A DNA stretch of 23,788 nucleotides, taken from the IMG/VR virus record IMGVR_UViG_3300036770_006207, positions 1 to 23,788 of that record. The stretch is one strand, 5' to 3'. This DNA is from a virus. Numbering within the stretch: the stretch's first letter is position 1; the number at the start of each line of letters is the position of its first letter. Positions 1,006 to 21,796 of this stretch are shown here, one piece after another. The notes beneath the pieces were generated by a model. That model searched no databases. It was given only the letters and a program-made list of their open reading frames with translations, and was not told the DNA's origin. A program made the position numbers and the translations under genes.

Positions 1006-1009
1006 TAGA

Positions 1010-1017: not shown

Positions 1018-1047
1018 TATACGTGGTTAATTAGGAACTATGTATAT

Positions 1048-1736: not shown

Positions 1737-1741
1737 TATTT

Positions 1742-1749
1742 CATAAATA
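1742..1749 (+). promoter_or_regulatory. Late promoter-like octamer CATAAATA
   Basis: CATAAATA differs from the T4 late consensus only at the first base. T4-like cyanophages are reported to tolerate variation at that position. It lies in the 18-nt gap between genes, the only other non-coding gap among the rightward genes apart from a 4-nt one. With T4 geometry (last base of the octamer at -6), the first transcribed base would be 1755, which is the A of the next gene's ATG. That would make a leaderless message for that gene. The promoter would also serve the genes downstream. Confidence 0.5.
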
Positions 1750-1754
1750 TTTTC

Positions 1755-2272: not shown

Positions 2273-2276
2273 TAAA

Positions 2277-5413: not shown

Positions 5414-6696
5414 TTTATAGCTTCCTCCCATTTAACCTTTCCTTTTCCTTTAATAAAATTATCCTTATTATGAATTAATTTTTTTTGGAATTGATCGGAA
5501 TAATATATATCATGGAGTTCTTCCGTAGACATATGACAAATTCTCTCTATATTATCGATGATGATTTTTGTCCTCTTTTTAATATCTTGTTCGTTATCAT
5601 AACTTTCATCAAATAATTCAGGAAATGTTTGATAACCATATTTTCTCATATATTCAAGAGTTCCTGGACATCCTGCTACAATAAAAGGATGATATTGCAA
5701 TATAGGTTGATAAATTTTTTCGGTAAGAAACAACACGTTTTCTTCTTCAAAATTATCAAACGTGGTTTCTGTGACAAAAGTAAAATAACTGTCGGAAAAC
5801 AAATTAGGTTGAAGAAATCGTTGATTTAATCCTTCTCCGATATTATTTGCATCGTGATCTATTATATAAGGACTATTATCTATAAATTCTTTCATGTGTT
5901 TTTTTAAATTTTCAAAATTTAATGGATCTGAATTATACTTTTTAATAGTCCAATTAAAAATACTTTCTTGAGGTTTGTAATATCTATTCAACCAACTAAA
6001 ATACGCATCAATGAGGAGATTTTTTGATTTGAGTTCTGCAGAAAAATAGAGCCGATGTTCTCGTGGATTCGCATTTCTAAAAATAAATTTTTTACTTCTA
6101 GTTTTCCAAAGATTTTGTATTCTATCTTTTTCTTTAGGAAACATATTCGTATGCCCCATTTTTTCTAAAATATGACATTCATTATGATACGTGGATTCAA
6201 AACTATCAAATCCGTATACATTTATTTCGCGAAGTCCCATTTTTTGTTGATATTTTTTAAAATTAATATCGATGTTTACATCGCCGAATACAAAATAAAC
6301 TTTGTGTCCTGGTATCTTTAAATCTTTAATACAAAAATCTATTATATCGATAAACCGAGGCATTGATAAACTAAATCCTTCACTAGAAAACCAAATCAAT
6401 AATCGTAAATTGCTATTTTCATTTTTAATTAATTCTAAAACATCTTTGTCAATCCATGCAAATACATTTTGATAAATCAAACTTTGATCGATCCATTCTA
6501 ATTCTATATGATAATAAGCAGTTTCGCCTTCCCATGTTTCCCTAGTAACTTGCCGATAAGGTATATTCAAGTGGTCGCATACCTCTTTAACAAACATCGG
6601 TTTAACACTTTTGTATTCTTTAATTTCTTCAGATCTCATATAGATAGGAACTGAATTAGGAATTTTTAATCCTGACTGATAAAAAAGCGTGATCAT
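5398..6696 (-). CDS. Putative glycosyltransferase, GT-B-like C-terminal signature (paralog 2), 432 aa
   Basis: This is the longest of the three paralogs. It carries FRNANPREHRLYF (about 206-218), VTETT (308-312), LTEKIYQPI (324-332), HPFIVAG (336-342), and YQTFPELFDESYDNEQD near 355-371. The N-terminal 200 residues are unlike those of the other two copies, which fits a variable acceptor-binding half. It has no signal peptide or membrane helix. GGGAG lies about 8 nt upstream of the ATG, which overlaps the upstream SGNH gene's stop as ATGA. Glycosyltransferase function is inferred from the conserved EK..(K/Q)PI segment. The real acceptor and sugar are unknown. Confidence 0.72.
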   Translation of the reverse strand: MITLFYQSGLKIPNSVPIYMRSEEIKEYKSVKPMFVKEVCDHLNIPYRQVTRETWEGETAYYHIELEWIDQSLIYQNVFAWIDKDVLELIKNENSNLRLLIWFSSEGFSLSMPRFIDIIDFCIKDLKIPGHKVYFVFGDVNIDINFKKYQQKMGLREINVYGFDSFESTYHNECHILEKMGHTNMFPKEKDRIQNLWKTRSKKFIFRNANPREHRLYFSAELKSKNLLIDAYFSWLNRYYKPQESIFNWTIKKYNSDPLNFENLKKHMKEFIDNSPYIIDHDANNIGEGLNQRFLQPNLFSDSYFTFVTETTFDNFEEENVLFLTEKIYQPILQYHPFIVAGCPGTLEYMRKYGYQTFPELFDESYDNEQDIKKRTKIIIDNIERICHMSTEELHDIYYSDQFQKKLIHNKDNFIKGKGKVKWEEAIKWLDR

Positions 6697-7508
6697 TGAT
6701 ATACTCCCGGTAATTGGGGTAAAAGAAAATCATCTACAAACATTTTGTGAGCTTCTTTGCTAGGATGATTATCATATCCATCGTCCCAAGTGTTTATATT
6801 ATTCAAAGTATATTCCCTAAGACCGCCATAGTTTTTATCTGTAAAAATCCACTTAGACCAATCGATGGAATCCTGCATACTTTTAAATTGTGGAGCACAA
6901 GTTAATATGTATTGGCCAAATCCTTCTCTATGAGTCATAAACCTATAGTTCCATCCCTTAGATTCACACATCCATTGCACCTGTAAAATAGATCTAATAG
7001 TATTATACCAGTGCGCATTAGTATTCCATAAATATTTTTGAAAATTAATAAACATGTTTACATATTCTTTATCTATAAATTTTTGATGTGCCCACTTGGT
7101 GTGTTCGGTAACTTTACTACATTGCATTAACCAAAAATTGTTCAATGTAGATCTATCAATTTCTCCAGTGATGTCTTTATGATAATATGTACCGGGATTA
7201 AAATCACTCTTTGATAATCTATTAGATTCAAAAAGATCATTAACATAAGGAGTTTCATCTTGATGTATAGGAATTTCAAACCTAACTGGAGAAGACCACA
7301 TAATCGATATATCAGGAAGAAAACCTTTTTCCGAAGCCCTTAAAGCAGAATCTATTACCGAGGACGAAATAAAACTATTTCCTGCTCCGGATTTGGCAGA
7401 ATTTTTTGAAAATTTCGTATTAGATATAATATTGCTCTGAATATAACGTGCCCAACTATCGTGCATGTCAGTAAAGCTGCATCCGCCAAAAATATAAAAC
7501 TTTTTCAT
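6693..7508 (-). CDS. SGNH/GDSL hydrolase-like protein, 271 aa
   Basis: SGNH-fold proteins are esterases or acyltransferases that often act on glycan O-acetyl groups. Here the nucleophile block is IFGGCSFT, with Ser11; the oxyanion block has SGAGN (G41-N44); and the C-terminal Asp-His block is DNHPSKEAH, with D246 and H248. The usual GxND block is replaced by MWSSPVRFE, as in other phage-type members I recall. The start is ATG 7508, which forms the ATGA overlap with the upstream gene. An upstream TTG at 7514 is less likely. There is no signal peptide, so it should act in the cytoplasm. It is flanked on both sides by putative glycosyltransferases, which supports a glycan substrate (inference). 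Confidence 0.78.
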   Translation of the reverse strand: MKKFYIFGGCSFTDMHDSWARYIQSNIISNTKFSKNSAKSGAGNSFISSSVIDSALRASEKGFLPDISIMWSSPVRFEIPIHQDETPYVNDLFESNRLSKSDFNPGTYYHKDITGEIDRSTLNNFWLMQCSKVTEHTKWAHQKFIDKEYVNMFINFQKYLWNTNAHWYNTIRSILQVQWMCESKGWNYRFMTHREGFGQYILTCAPQFKSMQDSIDWSKWIFTDKNYGGLREYTLNNINTWDDGYDNHPSKEAHKMFVDDFLLPQLPGVYQ

Positions 7509-8512
7509 AACCAACTTTCTATTTCCTTATTAGATATTTTCATCTCAAAATATTTTTTTTGATTCGATAATAATCTTTGATTGTAATAAAATTTATCCTT
7601 ATCGCTGAAATTTTTAATTTCTCTTAAAAATTTTTCTAAACTTTCTAAAGCAGACTCAAATCTTTTTATATCATCAATTTCATTATCATAAGAATTATCA
7701 ATGATATCATCAAATACATCAAAGTTTAAATTTCTAAAAAATTCAACCATTCCTGGCTGTGCTATCCATATTTGAAAATGACAATTTGCAATTGGCTTAT
7801 AGCTTTTTTCTGTGATAAACAATCCTCGTTTAGAATCTGCATATGTTTCTGTAACTAAAGAGATCGATGTTTGTTCGTATATAAAACTTTCGTGAGTTCT
7901 GTCATCTTGATGTATCTGTTCATTCGATCTATCTAATATTATTATATTTTTATCTTTAATAATCCCTTTTACATAACAAGGATCGCCGTTATAAGATTTT
8001 AAAAATAATTCCATACTATTTTTATTTTCAAAATGATTATATCTATTAAGAAAACTAACAAAATTGTTTTCTAATAAATTTTTATCATACAATCTTTGTA
8101 AAATATAATATCGATGCCAGTCCGGTCTCCCATTTAAACATAAAAATTTTTGATTGAAGCTATTTGATACATTTACCTTTTGATTATAATCTTCTAATCT
8201 TTTTTTGTAATCAAAAGCCCAATAATTAAAAAATTTACCTTTAGTTTCTGCTAATTTATAATTACAATGCAATACAGTTCCGTATCTACTAAAATAATCT
8301 ATGTCGATCCAGTTTTCGTCTCCCTCCGAGTGAAAAATAACCAAAGGCAGATTTTTTTCGTAAATTATCTCTCCTATCCCTTCATAATGCTCGCAAATTT
8401 GAAATGATCCTTCCCAATTGCTAAAAGATTCAATCATAGGTAGTATTCTATGCCCTGGACAATTTTTAAAATTTCCATCGACCTTAATTATTCTCAAATT
8501 CGATTTCGCCAT
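7505..8512 (-). CDS. Putative glycosyltransferase, GT-B-like C-terminal signature (paralog 3), 335 aa
   Basis: This is the third member of the paralog set: CLNGRPDWHR (125-134), VTETY (220-224), ITEKSYKPI (233-241), and FDVFDDIIDNSYDNEID (264-280). Compared with its relatives, the segment after KPI reads ANCHFQIWIAQPG instead of containing a PF pair, so the pocket may differ. The N-terminal half has the form of a small alpha/beta domain (VIFHSEGDENW). The start overlaps the upstream radical SAM gene by 19 nt and has only a weak ribosome binding site, so coupling is likely. Function as a sugar transferase is an inference from the shared signature. Confidence 0.72.
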   Translation of the reverse strand: MAKSNLRIIKVDGNFKNCPGHRILPMIESFSNWEGSFQICEHYEGIGEIIYEKNLPLVIFHSEGDENWIDIDYFSRYGTVLHCNYKLAETKGKFFNYWAFDYKKRLEDYNQKVNVSNSFNQKFLCLNGRPDWHRYYILQRLYDKNLLENNFVSFLNRYNHFENKNSMELFLKSYNGDPCYVKGIIKDKNIIILDRSNEQIHQDDRTHESFIYEQTSISLVTETYADSKRGLFITEKSYKPIANCHFQIWIAQPGMVEFFRNLNFDVFDDIIDNSYDNEIDDIKRFESALESLEKFLREIKNFSDKDKFYYNQRLLSNQKKYFEMKISNKEIESWL

Positions 8513-9348
8513 ATCGCTACACTTTCATAACCTTGCATAGTTCCATTAGTATCACAATTTTTACATGCAGGTAATTCTTTTCTCAATCCTTTTTCTAATT
8601 TACGCCTTACTTCGACAAATTTTTCATCGGACCAAATTTTATCAAATTCAGTCTTATAAATATTTCCAAATGATTGTTGTTTCCTCGACCAATCATTACA
8701 ACATAATCCAACGTCACCATTCCAATCTATAAATGCTTTATAAAAAGGTAACCAACAGGGCCTATAAGTTTCTTTAGGAGAAAATATTCCTCCCCTATTA
8801 TTAAAATTGTATAACTCAATTAATTTTTTAGAACCGTCATCGTAATGATCCCTTATTCTAAAAGGAATTTTACAATCCTTTAGAATTTTTGTCATTTGTT
8901 CGACATGACTAGGACCATCGTAACAGTCAACTATTAACAAATCTAAACCTGCAGATTGTAATTGTTGATGTGAAATCGATTCTTTCAATATTCTATCACC
9001 GTTAGTAATGAGTTCTGTATGGAAATTTTTTGATAAAATTTCTATTATTTTTAGTATATTAGGATTTAGAAGAGGCTCTCCATAGCCTGTTATATGAATA
9101 TCGCCGCGATAGTCAACGGACAGCAATTGATCTTTTAGTTTTTCAACTGTGTCAACTGACATATGAAGATTTCTATTAGGATAAATGTTAGGGTCGCTTC
9201 GTGGACAAAAACTGCATGTCCTATTACATAATTCAGTTGGATTGATTTCTATAACAGCAAGTCCTAATAGATAAGGATTAGTTTTATCTAAATCACGATA
9301 TCTTGCATCTCTAAACTGCAAATGATCAGTTATATTAAATTTTGACAT
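8494..9348 (-). CDS. Radical SAM protein with C-terminal SPASM/twitch-like domain, 284 aa
   Basis: The canonical radical SAM cluster motif is CNRTCSFC (C41, C45, C48), followed by GYGEP (88-92), which binds the SAM amino group, and ITNG (114-117). After the core, residues 195-268 carry C198, the pair C216-C217 in DVGLCC, and C262xxC265. This is the auxiliary-cluster domain in its usual C-terminal place. SPASM/twitch enzymes modify peptides, sugars or alcohols; the substrate here is unknown. It is the only radical SAM gene in the operon with this domain order: the six others carry a similar cysteine pattern before the core. It overlaps the upstream gene by 14 nt. Confidence 0.9.
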   Translation of the reverse strand: MSKFNITDHLQFRDARYRDLDKTNPYLLGLAVIEINPTELCNRTCSFCPRSDPNIYPNRNLHMSVDTVEKLKDQLLSVDYRGDIHITGYGEPLLNPNILKIIEILSKNFHTELITNGDRILKESISHQQLQSAGLDLLIVDCYDGPSHVEQMTKILKDCKIPFRIRDHYDDGSKKLIELYNFNNRGGIFSPKETYRPCWLPFYKAFIDWNGDVGLCCNDWSRKQQSFGNIYKTEFDKIWSDEKFVEVRRKLEKGLRKELPACKNCDTNGTMQGYESVAIWRNRI

Positions 9349-10336
9349 AGTGATCCGGTATGATTAATTCCGAATTGCTTAAGGCGTTAGGATTATGTAT
9401 GATAATAGAATCATCCAAACATCTAGAATACCTATGATCAACTGAAACAAAAAATAATAATTCAAAGAGATTAAAATTTTTAATATTTTTACCTAAATAT
9501 ATCCAAGGACAGTCTTTCGGTAATTTTTGTTTATTGACTAATTCAATATTATAAGAGAACGGTACCGATAAATTATTTTGACTTCGATCTTTAAAGGTCA
9601 TATTTTTCATTTGATCAGTTAATTCAAATGAAAAATTCACATCGTTATCGATATATATTTGTAATGGTAAGAATTTAAAAATAGTGTTTGACCATAAATT
9701 AAATTTTTTATAATCTGGCCAGGCATCTGCTCCTAAGAACTCATATGTAAAGTCTGGGTACTTTTGTCCTGCCTGATGTTTTCCTGCTATCCATAATTCT
9801 TCAAGATTTTCTGTTCTCCATAGAATTTTTTCTGAACTAATTAATGTATTTCTTAGTGTAGTTTCATCCGTGATATAAATTGGATCAGATAACCTAGATA
9901 ACAAAGTCTGATTTTTATTAATATTAATTAATGTTTTAAGTTTTTTTATTTTTAAAAATCTTGCAGCTACGCATCTGTTAGTTCCAGGATGAATTACAAT
10001 CTTTCCGTTATCTAGGTGATTAATTCCTTTTAACGGGTTGATCCATCCTTTTTTACAATAACTTTGTATTAGCCATAAAACTTTTTCAAAATAGTGTTTA
10101 ATCTTATTTTCTCCGATAAGAGGGATACCTAATACACTGGCTCCCCAATTATCTAACATAGATCTTGCAATTTTTTCTTCTTCATTTGTCACGTTATTGC
10201 TTTTTTTCCATTCGTCGATAATATCATCATTTATTCCACTATACCATTTTAAATCTTCTATAGGATAGTCCACAAGCACTACTACCTGTGTGTCGAAAAA
10301 ATTTTTATCGAAGAAATCTTGTCCTGCTGTACTCAT
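9335..10336 (-). CDS. Unknown protein with a ParB-like segment, 333 aa
   Basis: I do not recognise the whole protein. Residues 112-140 (KIVIHPGTNRCVAARFLKI and following) resemble the nucleotide-binding box of the ParB/sulfiredoxin fold, where a basic G.(R/N)R..AA..L pattern follows a short strand. The preceding helix-rich 60 residues and the following beta strand fit such a fold weakly. The C-terminal half (tryptophan- and aromatic-rich, KYPDFTYEFLGADAWPDY) has no motif I can name. ParB-like modules can act as CTPases, kinases or nucleases, so a small-molecule or regulatory role is possible but speculative. It sits between two radical SAM genes, with ATGA and 14-nt overlaps, so it may serve the same pathway. 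Confidence 0.6.
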   Translation of the reverse strand: MSTAGQDFFDKNFFDTQVVVLVDYPIEDLKWYSGINDDIIDEWKKSNNVTNEEEKIARSMLDNWGASVLGIPLIGENKIKHYFEKVLWLIQSYCKKGWINPLKGINHLDNGKIVIHPGTNRCVAARFLKIKKLKTLININKNQTLLSRLSDPIYITDETTLRNTLISSEKILWRTENLEELWIAGKHQAGQKYPDFTYEFLGADAWPDYKKFNLWSNTIFKFLPLQIYIDNDVNFSFELTDQMKNMTFKDRSQNNLSVPFSYNIELVNKQKLPKDCPWIYLGKNIKNFNLFELLFFVSVDHRYSRCLDDSIIIHNPNALSNSELIIPDHYVKI

Positions 10337-11499
10337 TTTATTTTTAATATCTCATTTAATTCAGGAAAAACTTTAGAAAAGTCCTCTCCCCGCAACGAAT
10401 CTAATTTTAATGTAGTATCTCTAAATTGCTCGGGATATTCTAAATGAATACTACCTTCCATCATAAAATCTACAACTTCTTTAACTTTCAAATCGTTCCA
10501 TTGATATCCAGTTTTGGTTTTTTCTAAATAATCTTTTACCTGTAATTTTTGATTGTCAGATAATGATTGTATATTCATATATTCTGGTCTAAATATAAAA
10601 TTAAAATATAACTGATCATCATGTAAACCAAATTTCTTTACCCAGTTGATAAATTCATTCATATACATCACGTTGTAAATAGAAACGCTATAACAAATCG
10701 GTGTCCATATTTTATTTTTAGATAACACACTCTCGAAGATAGGAACCATGGTTTCCCATTTGGCGGGATATCTGAGATATTCAAATTTTTTCTCTATCCC
10801 ATCGATACTAAACATAATTTCTACTTTTTTAAACTGATCCCAAATTTCGAACATCCTTTCAGTTGGTTGTATAGTGCCGTTGGTATTATAATGTACGATT
10901 ATATCTTTTGCGTAACCTCTTTCAACGCATTTTTGTAATATTTCAAAATGCTTTTTAATTAGAAACGGTTCTCCTCCGGTAAAATCAAAATATTCTATAT
11001 TCGGAAGTAACGTTTCAATCTCATTCCATATTGGGCTTTCTTCCTCGATCCAGTAACTGTGTATATTAGAATTAAAAGTTTTTCCGTAAATTTTTATTTC
11101 ATCTTCTGCCCATTTAGAACTACTGTGGCTGGAACAACTTCTACACTTTAAATTGCATACCGTACCCAACTTTAAATCTAAATATGTAGGAGGCTGTAAA
11201 GATGAATTCCACCTCTCTAATCTGTGTTTAAACCATTCGTTACTAATTTCTCTTTTTGATCTCTTACCTACAGATTCCATTTCCCAGCAAGGTGAACATC
11301 CGACTGGTTGGGATCCATTTAACATCTGCTGTCTTAGATTATTCATGTATTCACTGTTCCAAACATCCTTGATAGAATATTTGTTTAGATTAGCTACTTT
11401 CCCATCTATTTTTACAGGTTCTCTATAAAGACAACAAGGTTTGGCATTTCCTGCTGCGGTGGCTTCTAAATGTATCCAAGGTAAAATGCATTTTTTCAT
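10333..11499 (-). CDS. Radical SAM protein with N-terminal twitch-like cluster domain (CC type), 388 aa
   Basis: The auxiliary-cluster domain comes first: C4 in CILPWIH, C22-C23 in AKPCC, a conserved DVWNSEYMNNLR stretch, then C68xxC71. The radical SAM core follows: CNLKCRSC (C115, C119, C122), TGGEP (174-178), and HYNTNG. A family signature follows in the second half: SID (231-233) then EYLR (240-243) and W248. The substrate is unknown. The N-terminal placement matches the 'N-terminal twitch' radical SAM group described in protein family collections. Start and stop both sit in ATGA overlaps. Closest relatives by motif are the genes at 12284, 13467 and 14675. Confidence 0.92.
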   Translation of the reverse strand: MKKCILPWIHLEATAAGNAKPCCLYREPVKIDGKVANLNKYSIKDVWNSEYMNNLRQQMLNGSQPVGCSPCWEMESVGKRSKREISNEWFKHRLERWNSSLQPPTYLDLKLGTVCNLKCRSCSSHSSSKWAEDEIKIYGKTFNSNIHSYWIEEESPIWNEIETLLPNIEYFDFTGGEPFLIKKHFEILQKCVERGYAKDIIVHYNTNGTIQPTERMFEIWDQFKKVEIMFSIDGIEKKFEYLRYPAKWETMVPIFESVLSKNKIWTPICYSVSIYNVMYMNEFINWVKKFGLHDDQLYFNFIFRPEYMNIQSLSDNQKLQVKDYLEKTKTGYQWNDLKVKEVVDFMMEGSIHLEYPEQFRDTTLKLDSLRGEDFSKVFPELNEILKIK

Positions 11500-12284
11500 A
11501 ATAATTTTTCTATGTATGGTATTAAATATTCTTCAGCTAAAATTTTATTTCCGGCATGATTTATATGACTTCTATCTATATAAAAATCATTAGACGGATA
11601 TGTTCTTTCTAACCAAGATTTCCAATTCTCTTCTATATAATTTACACTATTTTTAAATTTGAGAAAAAAATTAGATTCTAAAATGTCATTCGGCAAAGGC
11701 AGATAAGAGAAATATAAAGATTTAATGTTGTGTTTTTTTAAATAATTTTCAAAAATTACTAAATTCGAAAAAGTTTTTTGAAATTTGTAAGTACTATATG
11801 ATACGTTTTCAGTCAGAACAGAAACAAAATTTCTATACTTTTTATAATTTAAGTTTTTCATCCCTGAGTGTTTAAATTCATCATGTTTAAATTTATCCTC
11901 GGCCGAATATGAACCATCTGTGTATTTTGTTTTAGCATTATCTGCTATACCAATTACTCTTTGAAATTTATCATTTTTAGATTCGTAATATATTGATTCA
12001 TCTTTTCCATTAAAATATTTGTTGTCTAAAAAATTGTCAAACCCGTCAGTTCCTAAAGTAATTCTATCTAATGTACTCAATTGAAATATAATAAAATCAA
12101 CTTTTTGTGTTTCAATTAAATTAAAGGCGGAAAAAATAGTATAATCAATATCAGCACCACAATGGCCCGCATTAATTACTTGCCAATCTTTTAGACAATT
12201 TTGTAAGTGAGCCGGATATGTTTCATAGCTTTTTATGCTATGACCCCATGTCCAACTGCAACCAACTGCAACCATCGTGTTCAT
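11496..12284 (-). CDS. SGNH/GDSL hydrolase-like protein, 262 aa
   Basis: The nucleophile block is AVGCSWTWG (Ser10), followed by NAGHCG (38-43) for the oxyanion region and a C-terminal DRSHINHAG with D237 and H240 in the catalytic DxxH spacing. The middle of the protein (about 95-170) is rich in lysine and tyrosine and not recognisable. The start is ATG 12284, which overlaps the previous stop as TAATG and has AAGG about 9 nt upstream. A further upstream ATG at 12323 would create a 40-nt overlap without benefit. It is distinct from the other SGNH protein in this operon, so two different acyl-transfer or deacylation steps may exist. Cytoplasmic; no signal peptide. Confidence 0.75.
   Translation of the reverse strand: MNTMVAVGCSWTWGHSIKSYETYPAHLQNCLKDWQVINAGHCGADIDYTIFSAFNLIETQKVDFIIFQLSTLDRITLGTDGFDNFLDNKYFNGKDESIYYESKNDKFQRVIGIADNAKTKYTDGSYSAEDKFKHDEFKHSGMKNLNYKKYRNFVSVLTENVSYSTYKFQKTFSNLVIFENYLKKHNIKSLYFSYLPLPNDILESNFFLKFKNSVNYIEENWKSWLERTYPSNDFYIDRSHINHAGNKILAEEYLIPYIEKLL
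12252..12274. repeat. 10-nt tandem repeat over the SGNH nucleophile codons
   Basis: The unit CCAACTGCAA occurs twice in direct succession (12252-12261 and 12262-12271), followed by a further CCA. It covers the codons for VAVGCSW, which includes the nucleophile serine of the SGNH protein. The period is not a multiple of three, so gain or loss of one unit would frameshift the gene right after its start. Confidence 0.7.
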
Positions 12285-13477
12285 TATATTAAACCTTCTA
12301 ATTCTGTAAAAACATTTCTCCAATTTTCCTGCCTAATAGAATCAATTTTATCCATATGATCGATCATCTTGGGAATTAAATTCTGTGTTTGAGCAGAATC
12401 GATAAATTTTATGTAGCTCTTAAAATCTTCCAGTACAGAGACCGAACCGTTAGGAATCAAATAATTTTCTATATATTGATTTATACTGTTCTTTAATTTT
12501 TCTTTAGTTTCGATTGGTAGTATTTGAACGCACAGGTGTTCGGGATTTACTGCAAAATTAAGTCTGAAATTATCAATATTATCAATTATACCACTTTCAT
12601 ATACTTCTTTATGAAAATCGATTACATGAAAACTGTTAAGTACGGTTAAAGTAAAATTAATAGTAAATCTGACATTAGGGGCTCTGATTTTTATTTGTTC
12701 TCTATTGTCTAAAAATTTTTGCCAGTTTTGTCCTTTTCTTATGAGTTCTCCTCTACTCCAACTTCCGTCAAGACTAGCATACATATCTACTCTTTCAAAT
12801 TTTGGCCAAAGGTCGAGAACGTTCATAGATTTATATTTTAGTTGGCTACAATTTGAATTATATCTAATATGAACATTATATTTTTTCATTTCATCTAGCC
12901 TGTTCAAAATTCGATAATGTTCTTCCATTATTAGAGGTTCACCGCCGGCAAAATAAATTTCTTCAACGGTATCAAATAAAGGTTCTATTTGTTCCCACAA
13001 TTTATCAGGATCCGGATCATTGGGAATATCTGATGGTAAAATTCCGTACATTTTTTTAGTGTCTTCATACCACCCGCTAGACAATTGTGGTCCGCACATT
13101 CTGCATTTAAAATTACATATATTGTTAAATCTAAAATCCCAATACACTAAATTCATTTTTTCGTAAGATCCGTCGGGCAATGTCTTATCTACTTCTGACA
13201 AATGATGAGAATATCTTTGATTAAGTGTCATTCTCATTGAGTTTTGACCCGCTTCTTCGAAAGCATAACATCGCTGGCAACTCTGAGACCTTAATCCGTT
13301 TAACATGTTTAATCTTAAATCTTTCATAGGAGTATCGTTCCATACTTCAGAAAGAGTTTGTTTAGAAAGATCTCCCACTGTATATTCCATTGGAGTTAAG
13401 CAACACGGATATACCTTTTCATTAGGCCATGTATGTAAATGTATCCAAGGTGAAATACAAAAAATATCATTCTTCAT
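12284..13477 (-). CDS. Radical SAM protein with N-terminal twitch-like cluster domain (CC type), 397 aa
   Basis: The N-terminal cluster domain has C7 in CISPWIH, C25-C26 in YPCC, EVWNDTPMKDLR, and C67xxC70. The radical SAM motif is CNFKCRMC (C121, C125, C128); AGGEP lies at 177-181, then RYNSN. The later signature is SLD...GELIR..W, with leucine in place of the aromatic residue of its relatives. The core is closest in style to the gene at 14675 (both CNFKCRMCG). It overlaps the upstream radical SAM gene by 11 nt and has no strong ribosome binding site. The reaction and substrate are unknown; position beside an SGNH gene suggests the same pathway. Confidence 0.92.
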   Translation of the reverse strand: MKNDIFCISPWIHLHTWPNEKVYPCCLTPMEYTVGDLSKQTLSEVWNDTPMKDLRLNMLNGLRSQSCQRCYAFEEAGQNSMRMTLNQRYSHHLSEVDKTLPDGSYEKMNLVYWDFRFNNICNFKCRMCGPQLSSGWYEDTKKMYGILPSDIPNDPDPDKLWEQIEPLFDTVEEIYFAGGEPLIMEEHYRILNRLDEMKKYNVHIRYNSNCSQLKYKSMNVLDLWPKFERVDMYASLDGSWSRGELIRKGQNWQKFLDNREQIKIRAPNVRFTINFTLTVLNSFHVIDFHKEVYESGIIDNIDNFRLNFAVNPEHLCVQILPIETKEKLKNSINQYIENYLIPNGSVSVLEDFKSYIKFIDSAQTQNLIPKMIDHMDKIDSIRQENWRNVFTELEGLI

Positions 13478-14678
13478 AAATTTTTAACTCTATTATTTTT
13501 GCGTAATCATAAAACGCTTTTTCAAACGACTGATTTCTTATCGTATCGAATTTTTTTGTTATTTCTAAAAATTCAAAAAATTTAGTTTCATTGCTATTTA
13601 AGCTCATAAAATTCTTAACTGAATCGTAAAATGGATAATTTCTAATTTTATTCAAAACCAATTTTTTGAGACCCGAAGGTAAATTAGTAATACTAAAATA
13701 AGCGGGATCAGAAACAAAATTGTGACTGATTAGAATTTGTCGATCATTAAAATAATTATAGAATTCTTCAAGATAAAAAACGTTCATCGTTGATACGGTT
13801 TGCAATATTGAAAAATTAATGTTATTATGTTTTTCTTTTAAATCTTGCAGCCATAACAAAAATTCTTGTATCTTATTCCAATCCGACGGATATCTTATAT
13901 AGGAATTTCTTTCTTTTAAATCATCTATGCTAATAGAAAAATCTACACTTAAAAACTCCTTCCATACATCTTCGTACAATTGATTTTTTACGGTTCCATT
14001 GGTAGAATAGTGTATTTTTATTTTTGATGCAACTCCTCGATTTACGAGCATCTCTAAAAATTGTTTATGCTTGTCTACTAATAAAGGTTCGCCACCATTG
14101 ATATATATAAATCTAAGATTGTTTGTTTTCTTATCGAGATTTTTCCAAAAATCGTCATCTAACGGCCAATCGAAGTATTTTTGATCTGTGTCAAATCTTC
14201 CATGTAATTTAATCCAATCTGATTTCATTTTTGTACTGCTATAGGGATTACAAGTTCTGCAGGCTAAATTACAATGATTTCCGAGTCTTAGTTCTACGAA
14301 TTCGTAATCTAAATCTTTTAGACTACCGTCTTTGTTGGTAATTTCTAATGCATTATTATAATTAAAATTCAATCTTTTCGATTCTCTTAACCGTTTGCTT
14401 TCAATGCCAACTGATTCCAATTCATAACATTTTTTACAAGGAGAAGGAATTTCTCCTTCCAATATTTTTTTACGAACGTCATTAAATAATTCCGAATTGT
14501 GTATTCTATCGAAATTATACTTCTCCGAATTTAATGTTCTAAAAATCTTTTTGCCATTTACTAAATCGTGTGAATGTGATTCAGCATTGACACTAGATGA
14601 TTCGCAACACAGAGATACTATACCGTGAGGATGTGTAGCTAGATGTGTCCAAGGCAGGGGGCAAAACGTTTTGCTCAT
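13467..14678 (-). CDS. Radical SAM protein with N-terminal twitch-like cluster domain (CC type), 403 aa
   Basis: The start is ATG 14678, in a 4-nt ATGA overlap with the upstream gene and with a GGTGGA about 8 nt upstream. An in-frame ATG at 14693 would add five residues. Cluster domain: C6 in CPLPWTH, C24-C25 in SLCC, a longer variable insert, then C81xxC84. Core: CNLACRTC (C136, C140, C143), NGGEP (194-198), and HYSTNG. Signature: SIDDLKERNSYIR..W. Compared with its neighbour at 10333 the insert between CC and CxxC is about 11 residues longer. The substrate is unknown. The base composition is very AT-rich, like the rest of the operon. Confidence 0.92.
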   Translation of the reverse strand: MSKTFCPLPWTHLATHPHGIVSLCCESSSVNAESHSHDLVNGKKIFRTLNSEKYNFDRIHNSELFNDVRKKILEGEIPSPCKKCYELESVGIESKRLRESKRLNFNYNNALEITNKDGSLKDLDYEFVELRLGNHCNLACRTCNPYSSTKMKSDWIKLHGRFDTDQKYFDWPLDDDFWKNLDKKTNNLRFIYINGGEPLLVDKHKQFLEMLVNRGVASKIKIHYSTNGTVKNQLYEDVWKEFLSVDFSISIDDLKERNSYIRYPSDWNKIQEFLLWLQDLKEKHNNINFSILQTVSTMNVFYLEEFYNYFNDRQILISHNFVSDPAYFSITNLPSGLKKLVLNKIRNYPFYDSVKNFMSLNSNETKFFEFLEITKKFDTIRNQSFEKAFYDYAKIIELKIYEE

Positions 14679-16012
14679 ATAGAATTCCACCATTGTAAGA
14701 CTAGATTGTTAGTAGCTAAAATTTCTTCTATCTTTAAAGCATGACCTTTATGACCGTCTTTTCTAAATTCGGCGATAGATTGTAATCTAGCTTTTCCCCG
14801 TCTTGCCCCTTCTATATATTGATCGGGATATTTTTCTTCGAAAGTAGGCCTTAATAACATATTTTCAAATATTTCTCTATAGACCTTAGTTAGTTCTGAT
14901 TCCATTCTTTTTTCATAATCGATAAGATCTAATAAAATTGGATCTAACAATCGTCGAGGTAGAGCCATTGGGCTCATTAGTACGCTACTATCAAAATCGA
15001 AAGTAATCTTGACATAACTTTTTACACCCAACTCAACTGCTAGATTCATAAGATTTTTCATATCTAATAATCCTGGCAATGTCACGGTTACATCAATGAC
15101 CATAGCATCGCTTCCGAACTGAGAATTTAAAAAAATACCTTGTTTGAAATAATCTAGCCAACGATCGTATTTTAATCCTGTCCTGACAAATTCAGCTATT
15201 TTACCAGTAGCGTCTTGACTACAGCACATGTTGACATTTTTAAAATACGGTAGGAGATCGTAGAGTTTTATTCCGTTACGTTCTATCAAACTGAGATTAG
15301 TATTATATCTAACAGTTACTTTGTGCGCTTGATCATTATCAACTAGATATTTCATTATATCCCAGTGTATTTGATACATTAAGGGCTCACCTCCAACCCA
15401 ATAAATTTCCTCAATTCGATCTTCTTTTACTGCGTTCCATAATTCCTGTTCTACTACTGTTTGTTGAAAATTTTCTACGACCTTTTTGTTTTCAGGGATC
15501 ATCCATTGATCTACATCAGCTTTCCAAGTATTCATTGATCTTTTTTCTGTTTCCCAGCTACTAGACAATTGTTCTCCGCACATCCTACACTTAAAATTAC
15601 AGAGATTATAAATGCGATAATCAAAACTCACAGGCTTCATGGTAGTATACCCAGTTTCGTCTGTGGATTCAAGAGCTTGTTTAATTTTATTAGGAAAGAT
15701 TGTATTAGTAAAATAGTTTCTATAAGTGTGTAAATTTAATTGTTGAGAATGACAGACTTCACATTCAGGAATACGTTCTCCTTGCATTATACGTTTACGA
15801 ACACTTTTCATGTGTTCGCTGTTCCAGTGCTGTTCTAAAGTGATCGGGATATACGTGCTACTTTGAACAGAATCGCCGGAATCGATATATTGCTTGGTCC
15901 AAGATGCTTGTTCTCTACTAGCACAACATATACGTCGTTCGCTTTGAGGACTGATATAAGTGTGTGTCCACGGTGCTATACAAAAGTAAGGACTAGGTAA
16001 AGAGTCTTTCAT
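14675..16012 (-). CDS. Radical SAM protein with N-terminal twitch-like cluster domain (CC type), 445 aa
   Basis: Cluster domain: C11 in CIAPWTH, C29-C30 in RRICC, HWNSEHMKSVRKR, then C84xxC87. Core: CNFKCRMC (C138, C142, C145), VGGEP (206-210), and RYNTN. The signature around the middle reads CCSQDATGKIAEFVR..W, with a cysteine pair (MCCS) not found in the other copies. The C-terminal 100 residues hold a long, charged helical region and end with a tryptophan pair (QWWNSI). It follows the upstream gene after one base; GAGG is too far upstream to be a good ribosome binding site, so initiation is probably coupled. The substrate is unknown. Confidence 0.92.
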   Translation of the reverse strand: MKDSLPSPYFCIAPWTHTYISPQSERRICCASREQASWTKQYIDSGDSVQSSTYIPITLEQHWNSEHMKSVRKRIMQGERIPECEVCHSQQLNLHTYRNYFTNTIFPNKIKQALESTDETGYTTMKPVSFDYRIYNLCNFKCRMCGEQLSSSWETEKRSMNTWKADVDQWMIPENKKVVENFQQTVVEQELWNAVKEDRIEEIYWVGGEPLMYQIHWDIMKYLVDNDQAHKVTVRYNTNLSLIERNGIKLYDLLPYFKNVNMCCSQDATGKIAEFVRTGLKYDRWLDYFKQGIFLNSQFGSDAMVIDVTVTLPGLLDMKNLMNLAVELGVKSYVKITFDFDSSVLMSPMALPRRLLDPILLDLIDYEKRMESELTKVYREIFENMLLRPTFEEKYPDQYIEGARRGKARLQSIAEFRKDGHKGHALKIEEILATNNLVLQWWNSI

Positions 16013-16013
16013 T

Positions 16014-17018
16014 TTAATAAATTAAATTATCCTCGTCATCAAGAAGATATGATGCTACAAATTTCGGATATTTAGAAACAACACTATTATAGAACCAATC
16101 GGCATTTTTATCTATAGAATCGATTTCTCCTAAAACATGTCTTCCTGGGTTATATTTAGGTTGCCGATAATCTATGTATCTATCAACAAAATTCGATTGA
16201 CACCATTTATAATATTCATTTTTAAAATTACTATTATTTTTATCAGTCGGTGCGTTGTTAAAAAATATCGATACATAATCAGTAAGGTATTCTTGCTGCT
16301 TAACTTCTTTTTTTTCTATTAAGTTGATATCATTTGTATTTGCACATGCCCATAAATCTTTTCCTACAGTTGCAAAATCACATATCAGATTTCCAGATTT
16401 AGGTTCTTGAAAATCTCGATAATCTTCATCTACTAACGTAACGTAAAGGTCTTTATAAGAACGATAATTTATAGGCCTTATTACTAATGAATATTGATTT
16501 CGTTGTTCTTCATTGAAACTTGCCTTTTCTATAAAGTGTACAATTTGATTTATTTTTTCAAATAAATTTCGTTCTCTAATTTTATTTGTATTGAACAGAT
16601 TGACTATTTCATTTTCAAATATAAAATGTAAATTATTAAGTTTATCTGTTTCCACCTTATTTAAATTTAAATTTAATTTAAGATTATCAGAAATTTTATA
16701 ACCAAGTGCATTTAACTCAGTTATAACTTTGTTCATTTCTGCTTTGGCTATTCTAATATTTTCTTCGTTCGAAGGAATGTACCAATTATAATCGTAGGAA
16801 TCTACTGCATGTGTTGTATCAAGATATTTTTTTTTAAAATTTCTATAAATTTTATAATATTCAACAAACTTTTTAGTCAAAGGAAGATCATTTAAAATGA
16901 AAGATAATGTTAAATTATCTTCTTTTTTGATTTCTTCGTTGATATCTAATACTGATTGAAAATTATTTCCGAAATAATCAAAATCCGTACCTTGATTAAA
17001 TATTACATTATATCTCAT
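16014..17018 (-). CDS. Unknown phage protein between radical SAM genes, 334 aa
   Basis: No function is recognised. The N-terminal half is helical and rich in asparagine and lysine (LNLNLNKVE near 115-123, encoded by a short hexanucleotide repeat). The C-terminal half has a patterned region: FATVGKDLWACANTNDINL, then EVKQQEYLTDYVSIFF, EYYKWCQSNF and YNPGRHVLGEID. From memory, 'GK.L.....DND..L......PQ' followed by 'PGRH.LGE' recurs in marine phage proteins of unknown role. There is no radical SAM or sugar-transfer motif. AGG lies 4 nt from the ATG. Its position between two radical SAM groups suggests a partner or substrate-binding protein, but that is only context. Confidence 0.75.
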   Translation of the reverse strand: MRYNVIFNQGTDFDYFGNNFQSVLDINEEIKKEDNLTLSFILNDLPLTKKFVEYYKIYRNFKKKYLDTTHAVDSYDYNWYIPSNEENIRIAKAEMNKVITELNALGYKISDNLKLNLNLNKVETDKLNNLHFIFENEIVNLFNTNKIRERNLFEKINQIVHFIEKASFNEEQRNQYSLVIRPINYRSYKDLYVTLVDEDYRDFQEPKSGNLICDFATVGKDLWACANTNDINLIEKKEVKQQEYLTDYVSIFFNNAPTDKNNSNFKNEYYKWCQSNFVDRYIDYRQPKYNPGRHVLGEIDSIDKNADWFYNSVVSKYPKFVASYLLDDEDNLIY

Positions 17019-17024
17019 AACCTA

Positions 17025-18524
17025 TTAATATTTTCCTAGAGGTTCGTCAATATTTTTATTATCTGGATTCAAGATCCATCCTTCTTTCTCTGCTAGACGT
17101 TTGAGTTCCTCATCATCATCGTATTGTTTGGTGCTATTACCGTCTACCAAAATCTGTATCTTGTCTAATTTAGTCTCGGGAATCTGTGCCAACCAATCAG
17201 TTAAGATCGCAGGAAACACCGATATGTCTTTTGTTCGTCGATGATCATATTGTTGATAGAAACTCTTAAAATCTCTCCATAGCGTAATCTTATTGCTGGT
17301 GCGTCGATGGGGTGCATCGACAACTATGAGATAGTCTATCAAGCGTTCTATACTGGCACGTTCGAACTCATGCATCAGAGGACTATTTTTGTTTGCATCA
17401 TACCATGTTTCGAGTTTGGTTCTGCAATAGTCTTTGATATGATCAGGAAGTGCTAAAGGACTTTGGAAACTAGGAAAACGTAATAAATTTACACTAACCG
17501 TAGGATTCTTTCCATACTTGGCTTTCATCTGCATAACTTCATCAAAGAATTCTGTAATAGAAAACAAGCAAAGACTGTTTATAGTCATCATTATATGTAC
17601 ACCTCGACAATTACCTTCTTCTAAGATACGATTTATATTCTTTTTCCATTGTACATAATCTAACCCGTCACGGATATATTCTGCTTGTTCTCCTACTGCT
17701 TCACAACTTGTGTACAAATGAAACTCATGTATGTTCTTGGTTTTTTCTATGAGCTTATCTATGATATCGTCTTTAGCGATTAAATTACTATTGATGGCAA
17801 ATCTCATCTTGCTGTTCTGCTCATTAAACCAATCTAACAGCTTCCATGTATTTCCGCTCATCAAAGGCTCGCCGCCTGTAATACGTAGCTCATCTAGGCT
17901 AGTGCTTAAACCGTTTTCCCACCATTTCCAAAATGCCTGTATATAAGGATTTTCTTCATCGTTCTTATATGGTTCAACCCACGAACCGTCTTGCTGAAAG
18001 GCAGCAGCACCGTCTGACACTAGATTCTGATAAGCACCGTGCTTTTTAATATCTCGAGCCCACGTAGTACTAAAGCTGGCATTACAATAAGAACAAGCTA
18101 AATTGCAGACACGGTCAAAACTGATTTCTAATGTCTTTAGTTCTGCATCGTGATTCCAAGGCTTGCGATAGATATCTTCTAATTCCTCGTCTTTATAGAT
18201 AATAGTTTTAAAAACACGATCACTGATATGATCCTTTCCTATGTCCTCTATCTTCCAACAATACTCGCACTCTCGAGGTCTCTCTCCCTCGATCATCATC
18301 TTACGCATCAGCTTTTTGTGTTTGGTATTGTGTATAGCGGTGTAATTATCTTTGAGTTCTTCTAGAGGAATATTGTGTGCAGGAGGATGATGGCAACTGG
18401 TCGTTGATCCGCTGCCTAACCATATAGTAGCATTGAGCCATTTAGCTGCGCAAAAACTTTCGCTTTTTATATCAATAATACGTTTACGATAATCTACTAG
18501 AGATTCATTAGGTTTTTTAGGCAT
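17025..18524 (-). CDS. Radical SAM protein with N-terminal cluster domain (CHHP type), 499 aa
   Basis: Cluster domain: C25 in CAAKW, C44 in SCHHPPAH, then C86xxC89. So the second cysteine of the CC pair is replaced by histidine, leaving four cysteines. Core: CNLACSYC (C140, C144, C147), TGGEP (216-220), and INSN. Signature: TSCEAVGEQAEYIR..W. A C-terminal extension of about 100 residues includes DHRRTKDISVFP and an acidic tail, and is longer than in the paralog at 18517. GAGG lies about 7 nt upstream of the ATG. The gene is clearly richer in G+C than its neighbours (roughly 40% in hand-counted lines), a possible sign of separate origin. Confidence 0.92.
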   Translation of the reverse strand: MPKKPNESLVDYRKRIIDIKSESFCAAKWLNATIWLGSGSTTSCHHPPAHNIPLEELKDNYTAIHNTKHKKLMRKMMIEGERPRECEYCWKIEDIGKDHISDRVFKTIIYKDEELEDIYRKPWNHDAELKTLEISFDRVCNLACSYCNASFSTTWARDIKKHGAYQNLVSDGAAAFQQDGSWVEPYKNDEENPYIQAFWKWWENGLSTSLDELRITGGEPLMSGNTWKLLDWFNEQNSKMRFAINSNLIAKDDIIDKLIEKTKNIHEFHLYTSCEAVGEQAEYIRDGLDYVQWKKNINRILEEGNCRGVHIMMTINSLCLFSITEFFDEVMQMKAKYGKNPTVSVNLLRFPSFQSPLALPDHIKDYCRTKLETWYDANKNSPLMHEFERASIERLIDYLIVVDAPHRRTSNKITLWRDFKSFYQQYDHRRTKDISVFPAILTDWLAQIPETKLDKIQILVDGNSTKQYDDDEELKRLAEKEGWILNPDNKNIDEPLGKY

Positions 18525-19890
18525 CCCATTCCTCTTTTAATTTTTTGTATTCGGGAAAAATTGTATCAAAATCAGTTCCTCTTCTGCGATCATACTCTTT
18601 TATGTATTCTATAAAATACTTTCGCCTCTCTCCAACATCCTCACTTTGTTTTAAATAATCACAAAATCGTTTTATTTGATCCCATTCTTCAAGATATAAT
18701 CTAGCATATTGGTGTTTTCGATAATATTTTAACCATGCTTGGCTGACATCTAATATTTCTTTACTGAATTCTTCTCTCATTTCTTGTGGTAATAATTTCA
18801 CACTAAGATGAGCCGGCCATCTTAAATAATTAATGCTTAACGGTATTCTATTAATATCCATAGTTTCATTATAATCGCACCTTAATTCCATTATTAATTC
18901 TATGAATTTCGAAAAAGTAGGTAGACTTAAAATGTTAATAGTAGTCATGACAGAGACTGTACATTCGGTCTGTTCTAAACACTTTCTTACATTAGAGATC
19001 CAATATTTGTAGTCTAGTCCAAATCTCGAATATTCGGCCTGTTTTCCTGTGCTTTCAAGGCTTGTGTAAATATCTATTTTTTTAACTTTGTCTTTGATAT
19101 CATTAATAGCAGACAAAAACTTTTCTATAAGTTTTTCCTCTACTACTAAATTTGTATTAATAGCTATTTCTAATTCTGGTTGTGGATTTTCTTTTACATA
19201 TTCGAAGACTTTCCATGTATCTTTGCTCATTAGAGGTTCTCCTCCGGTAATCCTAAAAACTTTAAGATGTGGCAACGCCTCCGGAAACCATTTCCAGAAC
19301 GCATCAACATATGGATTATCATCGCTGTGTTTATAAGGATATCTACCGACCTTTTTATACCATTCGATGTCTTGATTGCTTTCTGGTATAGGATAAGGAC
19401 CATATTGCTTAATCTCTTCTAACCATTTGCTGGAAATTTCAGGACTACAATAGCTACACTTTAAATTACAAGCATTAGAAAAACTAACTTCTAGATAAGC
19501 AGGATAAACATCATCATAGGGATCTTTAGAAGAAATTTCATTGAATCTGTCCCATGCCCAATAATCTGCTGTTTTGTAATGTCGGTCCGAAAAATAATCT
19601 TTATTGAGATCTTCGATTTTCCAACAATAATCACATTCTGTCGGACGTTCTCCTCTCAACATTAGCTCGCGTTGTGATTTTTTAAAATTACTGTTATGTA
19701 ATGCGGCCGGATTTTTTTCTATTTCCTGAACAGGAATTTTATGTGGACTAGGATGATGGCAACTGTGATTGTAACCATTTTGTAAATATAAGGTTGTTTG
19801 GAGCCATTTAGCTGTACAGAAGCTTGGACTAATGGCATTAATCTTTTCCCTCTTTTCTCTAAGGATGAATATCTTTTGCTCGTTGCTCAT
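18517..19890 (-). CDS. Radical SAM protein with N-terminal cluster domain (CHHP type), 457 aa
   Basis: Close paralog of the gene at 17025: C25 in CTAKW, C44 in SCHHPSPH, C86xxC89, then CNLKCSYC (C141, C145, C148), TGGEP (215-219), and INTN. Signature: TSLESTGKQAEYSR..W. The cluster-domain cysteines of both proteins fall at the same residue numbers, and both share WKIED and the YDRRRGTDFDTIFP-type C-terminal motif (DHRRTKDISVFP in the other). It ends without the longer tail. It overlaps the upstream gene by 32 nt, the longest overlap in the operon, and has no obvious ribosome binding site. The substrate is unknown. Confidence 0.92.
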   Translation of the reverse strand: MSNEQKIFILREKREKINAISPSFCTAKWLQTTLYLQNGYNHSCHHPSPHKIPVQEIEKNPAALHNSNFKKSQRELMLRGERPTECDYCWKIEDLNKDYFSDRHYKTADYWAWDRFNEISSKDPYDDVYPAYLEVSFSNACNLKCSYCSPEISSKWLEEIKQYGPYPIPESNQDIEWYKKVGRYPYKHSDDNPYVDAFWKWFPEALPHLKVFRITGGEPLMSKDTWKVFEYVKENPQPELEIAINTNLVVEEKLIEKFLSAINDIKDKVKKIDIYTSLESTGKQAEYSRFGLDYKYWISNVRKCLEQTECTVSVMTTINILSLPTFSKFIELIMELRCDYNETMDINRIPLSINYLRWPAHLSVKLLPQEMREEFSKEILDVSQAWLKYYRKHQYARLYLEEWDQIKRFCDYLKQSEDVGERRKYFIEYIKEYDRRRGTDFDTIFPEYKKLKEEWDA

Positions 19891-21796
19891 ATAAATTTTT
19901 TAAGAAATCAAAATCATTGATTTTACTTAATGCATCCTTATCGTCTATGTTATTATATCCGTATTCTCTGCCAGCCCTAGCACCGTCTAACGCAAATTTA
20001 CCGAATTTTCTATCTTCACCCTTAGTACACCAATCTTGCAACCTAAAATCAGTTTCTTCGTCGTAGCTTTCATCAACTGGTTTGCTGGCTAATTTAACAC
20101 ATTCTCTAAATGCTGATTTCCAGGTTGAAAATTCGTCCACATCAAATTTTGTAATATTAGAAACTTCATCGATGACTTTTATTCTAGAACTTATAGAAGT
20201 TGTCATATCTACAGAATTCATATCCATTGACAAAACAAGATCTTTCGGTAATAATTTTACTCCGCCGTAACCGTAAATTAAATCGTTGATCGGATTTTGA
20301 CTCTTCCAAATATGTACAATATCTCGTTCGTATCTAGTTACCAAATAATCAAAATTAAAATTTTCTACAATTTGTGCATCACCGTCCACTACAAAAAACA
20401 TATCTGTATCTGATAATTCGGCCGCTTTCTTGTGAGCATTATGGATTCCTTTGACCCCATGTACTCTTTTAGCTCGGGGAAATTTATCAACTAATGTATT
20501 AAAATTATCGTCCGCATTTATTTCATTATAGCTGATAAAAATAATATCATACGATCTGTGTTGACTGGCTACTATTTCGTACAATTTTTTCTCTATCGGA
20601 AATCTAAAATCTATTTCTTTTTTAGATAATATCTTGTTTTTTGAAACTAAAAAAATGCCATTATAATTTAATTCATTTCTAAATTTATTCTGAAATACAT
20701 GATTCATATTTCTATCATAAGAGTTATGATGAGAAAAATATAGATCGAAATTAAAGTCTATCGGTTCTACTTCTTTAGGAATCAACCATAACAATTCAGT
20801 ATTAGAATTTTTTACAGATGACAAATAGTCATCATATGTATCTATGATAAATTGTTCATATTTTTTAGGTTTAGACAGAATAGTATCTATCTCTTTTTTT
20901 ACAATGAAAAAACGATGTTTAAATTCTTTTTCACTAACTATATTTTTTTTCGGAAAAAGACAAATACCATCATAGTGTTCATCATTTTTAAAAATATGAG
21001 TAATATGTTGATTATAATACGGTACCTGATAATCTAATTCTTTAATTAATTCGACATCGTTCCAAACTGCCCAGAACATATTTGTTTTGCTAGATTCAAC
21101 AATTTTTAAATATTGCTGATATGAATTAATATTAAATTTTTCGTAAGGTTTAGGAATGCTTAATGTGATATCTATTTCTTTCTTATCGAGAAATGATCTA
21201 TATTCAAATTCTTTTTGAGAAACTAATTTGTCTTTGCTAAAGAGGCAAATACCGTCAAAATATTCTCCATTTTTAAATACATGAGTTAAATGTTGATTAT
21301 AGATAGGTACCTGATAATCTAATTCTTCAATTAATTCAACATCGTTCCAAACTGCCCAGAACATACGAGTGGTTGATCTATTTGCTGCTTCTAAATATTC
21401 ATCGTAATTAGAGATATAAAATTTTTCAAAAGAAAAAGGACGACTGGCTATTATATCAATTTCTTTTTTATTTTCAAAAAATCTATTTTTAAATTCTCGA
21501 TCGGCAACATTATGAAATTTTGAAAATATACATACTCCATCAAAATAATTTTTATTTTTAAATACATGAACATACTGTTCATCCCATTCTGAAATTCTAT
21601 AATCAAATAGAAAATCAGAAGATATTTCTATATCATCCCAGACTACATAGAAAAATTTAGTAAAAGATTTTTTCTTTATTTGTTCTAAATTTTTAACATT
21701 ATCAATTTTTTGAGATGTAGGAAATCTATTTTTAAAATTTGTCCATAAATCTTGATTGACATTTTGATGGCTTACAAAAAAAATATCATACATCAT
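19859..21796 (-). CDS. Multi-module glycosyltransferase-like protein with internal repeats, about 645 aa
   Basis: The start is taken at ATG 21796 (ATGATG), because the following MMYDIFFVSH matches the beginning of the next upstream protein. The frame is open further upstream but overlaps that gene. Four degenerate modules come first (about 3-119, 120-214, 215-309, 310-411). Modules 2 and 3 share MFWAVWNDVEL, LDYQVP.YNQH.TH.FKN and DGICLF at an exact 95-residue period. The C-terminal module (416-645) is like the whole protein at 21786-22679 and keeps a DGD (471-473) where the repeats have WND or lose it. The fit is one active GT-A-like domain behind inactive copies, perhaps for binding. No membrane segment is seen in the chosen start. 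Confidence 0.78.
   Translation of the reverse strand: MMYDIFFVSHQNVNQDLWTNFKNRFPTSQKIDNVKNLEQIKKKSFTKFFYVVWDDIEISSDFLFDYRISEWDEQYVHVFKNKNYFDGVCIFSKFHNVADREFKNRFFENKKEIDIIASRPFSFEKFYISNYDEYLEAANRSTTRMFWAVWNDVELIEELDYQVPIYNQHLTHVFKNGEYFDGICLFSKDKLVSQKEFEYRSFLDKKEIDITLSIPKPYEKFNINSYQQYLKIVESSKTNMFWAVWNDVELIKELDYQVPYYNQHITHIFKNDEHYDGICLFPKKNIVSEKEFKHRFFIVKKEIDTILSKPKKYEQFIIDTYDDYLSSVKNSNTELLWLIPKEVEPIDFNFDLYFSHHNSYDRNMNHVFQNKFRNELNYNGIFLVSKNKILSKKEIDFRFPIEKKLYEIVASQHRSYDIIFISYNEINADDNFNTLVDKFPRAKRVHGVKGIHNAHKKAAELSDTDMFFVVDGDAQIVENFNFDYLVTRYERDIVHIWKSQNPINDLIYGYGGVKLLPKDLVLSMDMNSVDMTTSISSRIKVIDEVSNITKFDVDEFSTWKSAFRECVKLASKPVDESYDEETDFRLQDWCTKGEDRKFGKFALDGARAGREYGYNNIDDKDALSKINDFDFLKNLYEQRAKDIHP
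21021..21365. repeat. Direct repeat with 285-bp period inside the multi-module gene
   Basis: The 60-base block at 21021-21080 recurs at 21306-21365 with only two mismatches. The offset is 285 bp, exactly 95 codons, so the reading frame is kept. Weaker similarity continues outside the block on both sides. The block encodes FWAVWNDVEL and the following LDYQVP. The near identity at DNA level, far above that of the flanking parts of the modules, suggests a recent duplication or gene conversion. Confidence 0.85.

Follow-up and report, generated by a model that had tools for sequence, protein, structure and literature searches.

Multiple radical S-adenosylmethionine (SAM) genes in marine T4-like viruses, and radical SAM cassettes in pelagimyophages, are already known. 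The T4-like marine virus TARA_ERS488813_N000010 is reported to encode an A-type iron-sulfur (Fe-S) carrier alongside 12 radical SAM genes (PMC5332604). The accessible text on pelagimyophages describes a host recognition cluster, a variable region with tail fibres, glycosyltransferases (GTs) and radical SAM-related cassettes (PMC7029224). On a 36-kb plasmid of Brachyspira hyodysenteriae, GT and sugar-epimerase genes likewise cluster with several radical SAM genes (PMC4267127). Here we analyze an operon with seven radical SAM genes in the viral record IMGVR_UViG_3300036770_006207; the stretch studied (the window) spans the whole record of 23,788 bases. We tentatively propose, with a confidence that falls just short of even, that it builds and tailors a glycan in the cytoplasm as part of a phage adhesin locus.

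The module shares with TARA_ERS488813_N000010 the presence of many radical SAM genes and an Fe-S carrier in a T4-like marine genome; the available portions of that account centre on Fe-S metabolism and report neither a linkage to tail fibres and GTs nor an ortholog structure (PMC5332604). The pelagimyophage cluster differs in being read as a modifier of the host O-chain, and its radical SAM cassette is not analyzed in the accessible text (PMC7029224). The Brachyspira cluster differs in lying on a bacterial plasmid and lacking tail fibres, and a search of a plasmid collection with R4, one of the seven enzymes, matched only one other plasmid. The literature searched contained no account of the ortholog groups, of their fixed arrangement with tail-fibre, GT8 and GT-A genes, or of the lack of export parts described below.

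Among cultured phages, the nearest case is Vibrio phage K566, which combines several N-twitch-like radical SAMs with two GT8 genes within a single stretch, while Vibrio phage nt-1 has N-twitch-like radical SAMs beside a gene that reads by eye as a GT4; identity is about 24% in both. Homologs of the GT-A and GT-B enzymes and of S116 (a 116-residue protein) gave no match in the cultured-phage collection. One K566 gene annotated as hypothetical, VPHK566_0308 (L170:7923-9185), matches the N-twitch family NF033640 under its cut-off with an intact radical SAM motif; its neighbour is a GT8 gene, and an apparent adhesin gene lies close by.

Seven intact radical SAM genes in one operon

The operon comprises 19 tightly packed genes on the minus strand, running from 23760 down to 3228. 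Overlaps occur at 16 of its 18 junctions, and the largest gap is 6 nucleotides. Small genes on the plus strand (28-3231) meet it tail to tail, and on its 5' side the window ends inside a GT8 gene. An assembly artefact was rejected, as the gene order is the same in the independent contigs L088 and L093; in L088 it is nearly identical to that of the window.

A sequence-only reading of this DNA had described seven intact radical SAM genes in one operon, and their coordinates, strand and motifs were confirmed. When the window was searched as DNA, all seven passed the PF04055 cut-off and none had internal stops. The CxxxCxxC motif is kept in all seven, followed by GGEP in six and by GYGEP in R1C (8494-9348). 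R7, the first in order (18517-19890; 345 bits), R6 (17025-18524; 311 bits), R5 (14675-16012; 286 bits), R4 (13467-14693; 335 bits), R3 (12284-13477; 383 bits) and R2 (10333-11499; 374 bits) all score far over the 170-bit cut-off of NF033640 (N_Twi_rSAM), a family whose name gives no reaction. R1C reaches 44 bits, falls outside that family and carries its SPASM/twitch domain at the C-terminus (PF13186 at 198-266). Thus the number seven stands, but the enzymes are not all paralogs as had been assumed: the set is predicted to be six members of one family plus one enzyme resembling BtrN.

Radical SAM enzymes are sensitive to oxygen and carry a high cost, and their cofactor demand had been singled out as a burden for a phage. 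An A-type Fe-S carrier is encoded in 10 of 20 related contigs, which bears on supply and is in line with the available portions of the TARA_ERS488813_N000010 account (PMC5332604). The genes show no sign of decay. CxxxCxxC is present in 627 of 627 full-length N-twitch homologs, and the auxiliary-cluster cysteines are retained in 98.5-100% of 452 non-redundant ones. Compared with the nearest contig, the ratio of nonsynonymous to synonymous substitution (dN/dS) is 0.015-0.10 for the seven radical SAM genes; the other enzymes tested lie at 0.10-0.17. Dead or decaying copies were rejected on the strength of these motifs, cysteines and ratios, and because of the low dN/dS and the near-identical gene order in L088 the seven-gene operon goes beyond chance.

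In a tree of the 452 homologs, R2 to R7 each fall into a clade of their own with 54-86 members, usually one per locus (supports 0.56-0.98). They make up six ortholog groups found in 54-77 viral loci at about one copy per locus: R7 in 77, R3 in 73, R6 in 58, R4 in 57 and R5 as 54 copies in 54 loci. R7 precedes R6 in all 82 loci with one of each, and the two are adjacent 99 times. The six paralogs are therefore most simply taken as old ortholog groups, and recent tandem amplification of a single gene was rejected. Such groups and the fixed R7-R6 order are as expected for separate, non-interchangeable roles. Predicted distinct roles for the paralogs, as the sequence-only reading had supposed, are thus well supported by phylogeny and gene order.

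Radical SAM and glycan genes form a conserved unit

The data set of 167 sources consisted of the window, seven of its slices and 159 viral loci retrieved by radical SAM similarity. These loci hold between one and ten radical SAM genes each. A permutation test on four long contigs placed the glycan families closer to the radical SAM genes than was seen with shuffled genes (0 of 5000 permutations for three of the contigs, p 0.006 for the fourth). Since these families had been defined near radical SAM genes, a reverse test was added in which loci were fetched by the neighbouring genes. All 44 GT-A-fetched loci with enough downstream DNA contain a radical SAM gene. The 49 loci fetched with S116 contain a radical SAM gene in 47 cases, the GT8-GT8-Y2-GTA series in 49 and tail-fibre-family genes in 46. 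Loci of T4-like phages anchored on gp23 have a radical SAM gene in 1 of 80, a background figure and no strict control, as they cover another genome region and many are short. Each of these fetches took the best 80 matches, which biases the loci towards close relatives.

Across the relatives, the order is fixed: tail fibre, S116, GT8, GT8, Y2, GT-A, GT-A, radical SAM genes. The proposed co-occurrence of radical SAM and glycan genes as a unit thus held from both sides, and neither of the outcomes named beforehand as counting against it, scattered radical SAM genes or inactivated copies, was seen in related loci. The link between the two gene sets is well supported by these genomic comparisons, and by the same evidence the module is considered real, widespread and conserved.

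Two very large viral records, L122 (424 kb) and L123 (524 kb), have gp23-like genes and four N-twitch radical SAMs each; they could be jumbo T4-like phages. Contigs L171-L173, binned as bacterial metagenome-assembled genomes, carry the same GT8/GT-A/radical SAM module and are probably phage DNA.

In relatives, the module lies beside adhesin genes

The window is tied to fibre-bearing relatives by L089 and L096, both of which share its radical SAM side and its plus-strand genes. In L089, the proteins encoded upstream of the module match tail-fibre families. The arrangement looked for as a sign of virion-protein glycosylation, GT genes beside structural-protein genes, was found in relatives. In a second lineage (L141 and L148), the same R7-R6 radical SAMs stand behind other adhesins, one a tail fibre tipped with an S74 endosialidase chaperone and one a LamG-fold protein, and are accompanied by other GTs of the GT2 and GT7 types. 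In the close relative L096, a further radical SAM gene near the module (18073-18927) looks QueE-like by eye, hinting at a deazaguanine DNA modification separate from the operon.

Glycosyltransferases and partner proteins

At least five GT-like proteins had been noted in the operon. They resolve into three GT-B paralogs, GT1 (7505-8512), GT2 (5398-6696; E 1e-19 to GT1) and GT3 (4442-5431; E 3e-12 to GT1), and two GT-A-like paralogs, GTA1 (21786-22679) and GTA2 (19859-21877; E 9e-35 to GTA1), both with a DxD motif. The sixth GT, Y1 (23254-23760), is the C-terminal part of a glycogenin-like GT8 truncated by the contig end. Its family profile matches glycogenin with E 4e-8, and full-length GT8 genes occur as a tandem pair in L089 and many relatives. 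In an alignment of GTA1 relatives the DxD (VDADN in GTA1) is invariant. GTA2 also has several repeats of about 100 residues (MFWAVWNDVEL...HVFKN...FDGI) ahead of its GT-A-like domain.

Searches of the PDB with GT-B and GT-A profiles by sequence gave nothing useful, and the GT-B enzymes were therefore compared by fold. The GT1 model (predicted local distance difference test, pLDDT, 82) had no Foldseek match at E ≤ 0.001. In a further fold search, the top 50 entries shown were almost all GT-B glycosyltransferases (Z 11.3-9.6, residues 15-335), so that GT1 is predicted to have a GT-B fold over its whole chain. The matches include the T4 alpha- and beta-glucosyltransferases. This closeness, together with the T4-like relatives (gp23 in 12 of 20 related contigs), would fit DNA hypermodification, in which the GTs glycosylate modified bases and the radical SAM enzymes alter the attached sugars. 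However, TarM, Gtf3 and a fucosyltransferase reach about the same Z against GT1, so the fold fixes neither donor nor acceptor. Only 8 of the 20 contigs encode a member of the thymidylate-synthase family, to which base hydroxymethylases belong, several contigs rich in radical SAM genes lack it, and the linkage is to adhesins. Glycosylated hydroxymethyl bases are thus not supported as a general explanation, and we consider hypermodification of DNA highly improbable.

Among the other partners, a nucleotide-sugar 6-dehydrogenase at 3228-4445 was correctly recognized from sequence; it matches PF03721 and PF00984, and TIGR03026 with 157 bits, under that model's cut-off. Two genes had been called SGNH-like, SG1 (11496-12323) and SG2 (6693-7514; family in 85 loci). 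Gly-x-Ser and a His, C-terminal in SG1, are conserved in their families, but the PDB gives only a weak match (E 0.023), and both are kept as candidate hydrolases or acyltransferases by motif. Y2 (22676-23269), a conserved protein of about 200 residues between the GT8s and GT-A, holds the same position in 39 loci and has no Pfam or PHROG match worth naming. X2 (9335-10336) is a rare companion protein found in 5 loci. X1 (16014-17018) belongs to family X355 (hidden Markov model E 5e-32), which occurs at 43 radical SAM loci (L030:13346-14386 is another member) and may be a dedicated partner.

The glycan acceptor

The machinery of the module is soluble throughout. By a simple hydropathy count, proteins with at least two predicted membrane spans are absent from the core families and number 26 among 1,631 neighbours. 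Neither a phosphoglycosyl transferase (PF02397) nor a Wzx-type flippase (PF01943) was found in the 20 related contigs, which may be fragments; most control genomes gave matches. A phage-encoded lipid-linked pathway to O-antigen or capsule is therefore not supported. Since the machinery is soluble and no lipid-linked export step was found, the acceptor is more probably a virion protein than a free glycan or one on the host surface. Decoration of an acceptor in the cytoplasm, for which the tail fibre is the simplest candidate, is accordingly favoured over the synthesis of O-antigen or capsule.

The tailored sugars might instead be put by host machinery on the lipopolysaccharide or capsule of the host, blocking other phages. 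GTs of the pelagimyophage host-recognition clusters have been interpreted along these lines in the accessible text (PMC7029224), the radical SAM, GT and epimerase genes of the Brachyspira plasmid were tied by their authors to lipo-oligosaccharide or glycosylation (PMC4267127), and nucleotide-sugar genes are present in the clusters here. But the missing transferase and flippase, the lack of any membrane protein in the core and the tail fibre as constant neighbour all argue against such surface remodelling, which we judge to be unlikely. The link to glycans or glycoconjugates proposed from sequence stands; what it had missed are the tail-fibre position and the soluble machinery, which point to a virion protein as the acceptor.

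Substrates of the radical SAM enzymes

BtrN, the butirosin aminocyclitol dehydrogenase, oxidises a hydroxyl of an aminocyclitol. It is the only PDB sequence match of R1C (E 4e-19, 72 bits, residues 31-270). The similarity is distant but covers nearly the whole length, including the radical SAM motif, an NRGG stretch and the cysteines of the SPASM/twitch region. This likeness suggests that R1C carries out a sugar-type reaction. Sugar-tailoring genes also recur around the radical SAMs of relatives, namely a carbamoyltransferase (58 loci) and a family that is methyltransferase-like by eye (64 loci), with a DegT aminotransferase and an epimerase as further neighbours. The methyltransferase-like proteins (for example L101:19135-20103) have a variable number of N-terminal repeats, ELRKAVxExNLHSIFRL, and no confident Pfam match. 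Because of the R1C-BtrN match and the recurring sugar-tailoring genes, we prefer sugars as the radical SAM substrates, with moderate confidence.

For R2 (model pLDDT 91), a fold search gave a tie at Z about 12 between BlsE, anSME and SkfB. The first of these acts on a glucuronyl group and the other two on peptides, as do most characterised SPASM/twitch radical SAM enzymes. The radical SAM enzymes could accordingly modify amino acids of the adhesin, yielding crosslinks, epimers or oxidised side chains, with the GTs glycosylating the same protein independently; the constancy of the tail-fibre neighbours would suit this as well. However, R1C resembles an aminocyclitol enzyme, sugar-tailoring genes recur near the radical SAMs, and the operon has no room for a small precursor gene. 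The TF1/TF2 proteins are also cysteine-poor, contrary to thioether or formylglycine chemistry. Taken with these points, modification of amino acids appears quite unlikely.

A pathway to a ribosomally synthesized and post-translationally modified peptide was rejected outright. No small open reading frame lies between the genes, and with a largest gap of 6 nucleotides the earlier statement that no precursor gene is present was borne out. S116 was also rejected as a precursor peptide, as it is conserved along its whole chain and has no variable core.

Discussion

We propose a model for how the glycan-building and glycan-tailoring operon may act. Two GT8-type enzymes would, together with the GT-A enzymes, initiate a short glycan and lengthen it on a soluble acceptor, for which the tail fibres encoded just upstream are the likeliest candidate. 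The GT-B enzymes would attach more sugars, one of which might be a uronic acid provided by the dehydrogenase, and acyl groups may be put on or taken off by the SGNH enzymes. The radical SAM enzymes would each alter the sugars at one specific position, by oxidation, epimerisation, deoxygenation or decarboxylation. Once decorated, the adhesin might show altered host binding, or the fibre might be protected.

Several points weigh against this model. The window itself has no tail-fibre gene, as the contig stops inside the GT8 gene, and the fibre linkage comes from relatives. The family profiles were built from radical SAM neighbourhoods, which favours finding clusters. Fibre and glycan genes could merely share a variable region with no mutual action, and host enzymes could supply the lipid-carrier steps. 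The fold of R2 is no nearer to BlsE than to the peptide enzymes anSME and SkfB. In a scan with R2 relatives, bacterial N-twitch radical SAMs often came without GT genes. Finally, in a third lineage (L125), the neighbours of the radical SAM block are not tail fibres but the curli genes csgF and csgG. By this comparison of lineages, the block is seen to travel more with display or adhesion genes than with one particular fibre.

Two of these settings have features of their own. Just upstream of the L125 block, 105-6740 encodes CsgF-/CsgG-like curli secretion proteins and a CHASE2/adenylate-cyclase protein, an arrangement of one viral clade. In Bdellovibrio-group bacteria and Poseidonocella (L176, L177, L178, L184 and L188), N-twitch radical SAMs occur alone or as sets of three and mostly lack GT partners; those of Poseidonocella stand beside a 2,317-residue open frame and an acyl-carrier-like protein.

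In a great many viral contigs, several radical SAM genes are maintained under strong selection beside host-recognition genes. It is tempting to speculate, though we hold it to be somewhat less than an even prospect, that many T4-like aquatic phages employ a conserved series of as many as six or seven different radical SAM enzymes to rewrite the glycan of their own tail fibres position by position. If so, radical chemistry would be part of the post-translational maturation of a virion adhesin, and the module would hold a large set of candidate sugar-active radical enzymes. The conserved R7-R6 pair, the BtrN-like enzyme with its predicted reaction and the named acceptor candidates offer handles on the system. 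If the radical SAM enzymes do tailor fibre sugars, host recognition by these phages would hinge on chemistry that is invisible in their protein sequences.

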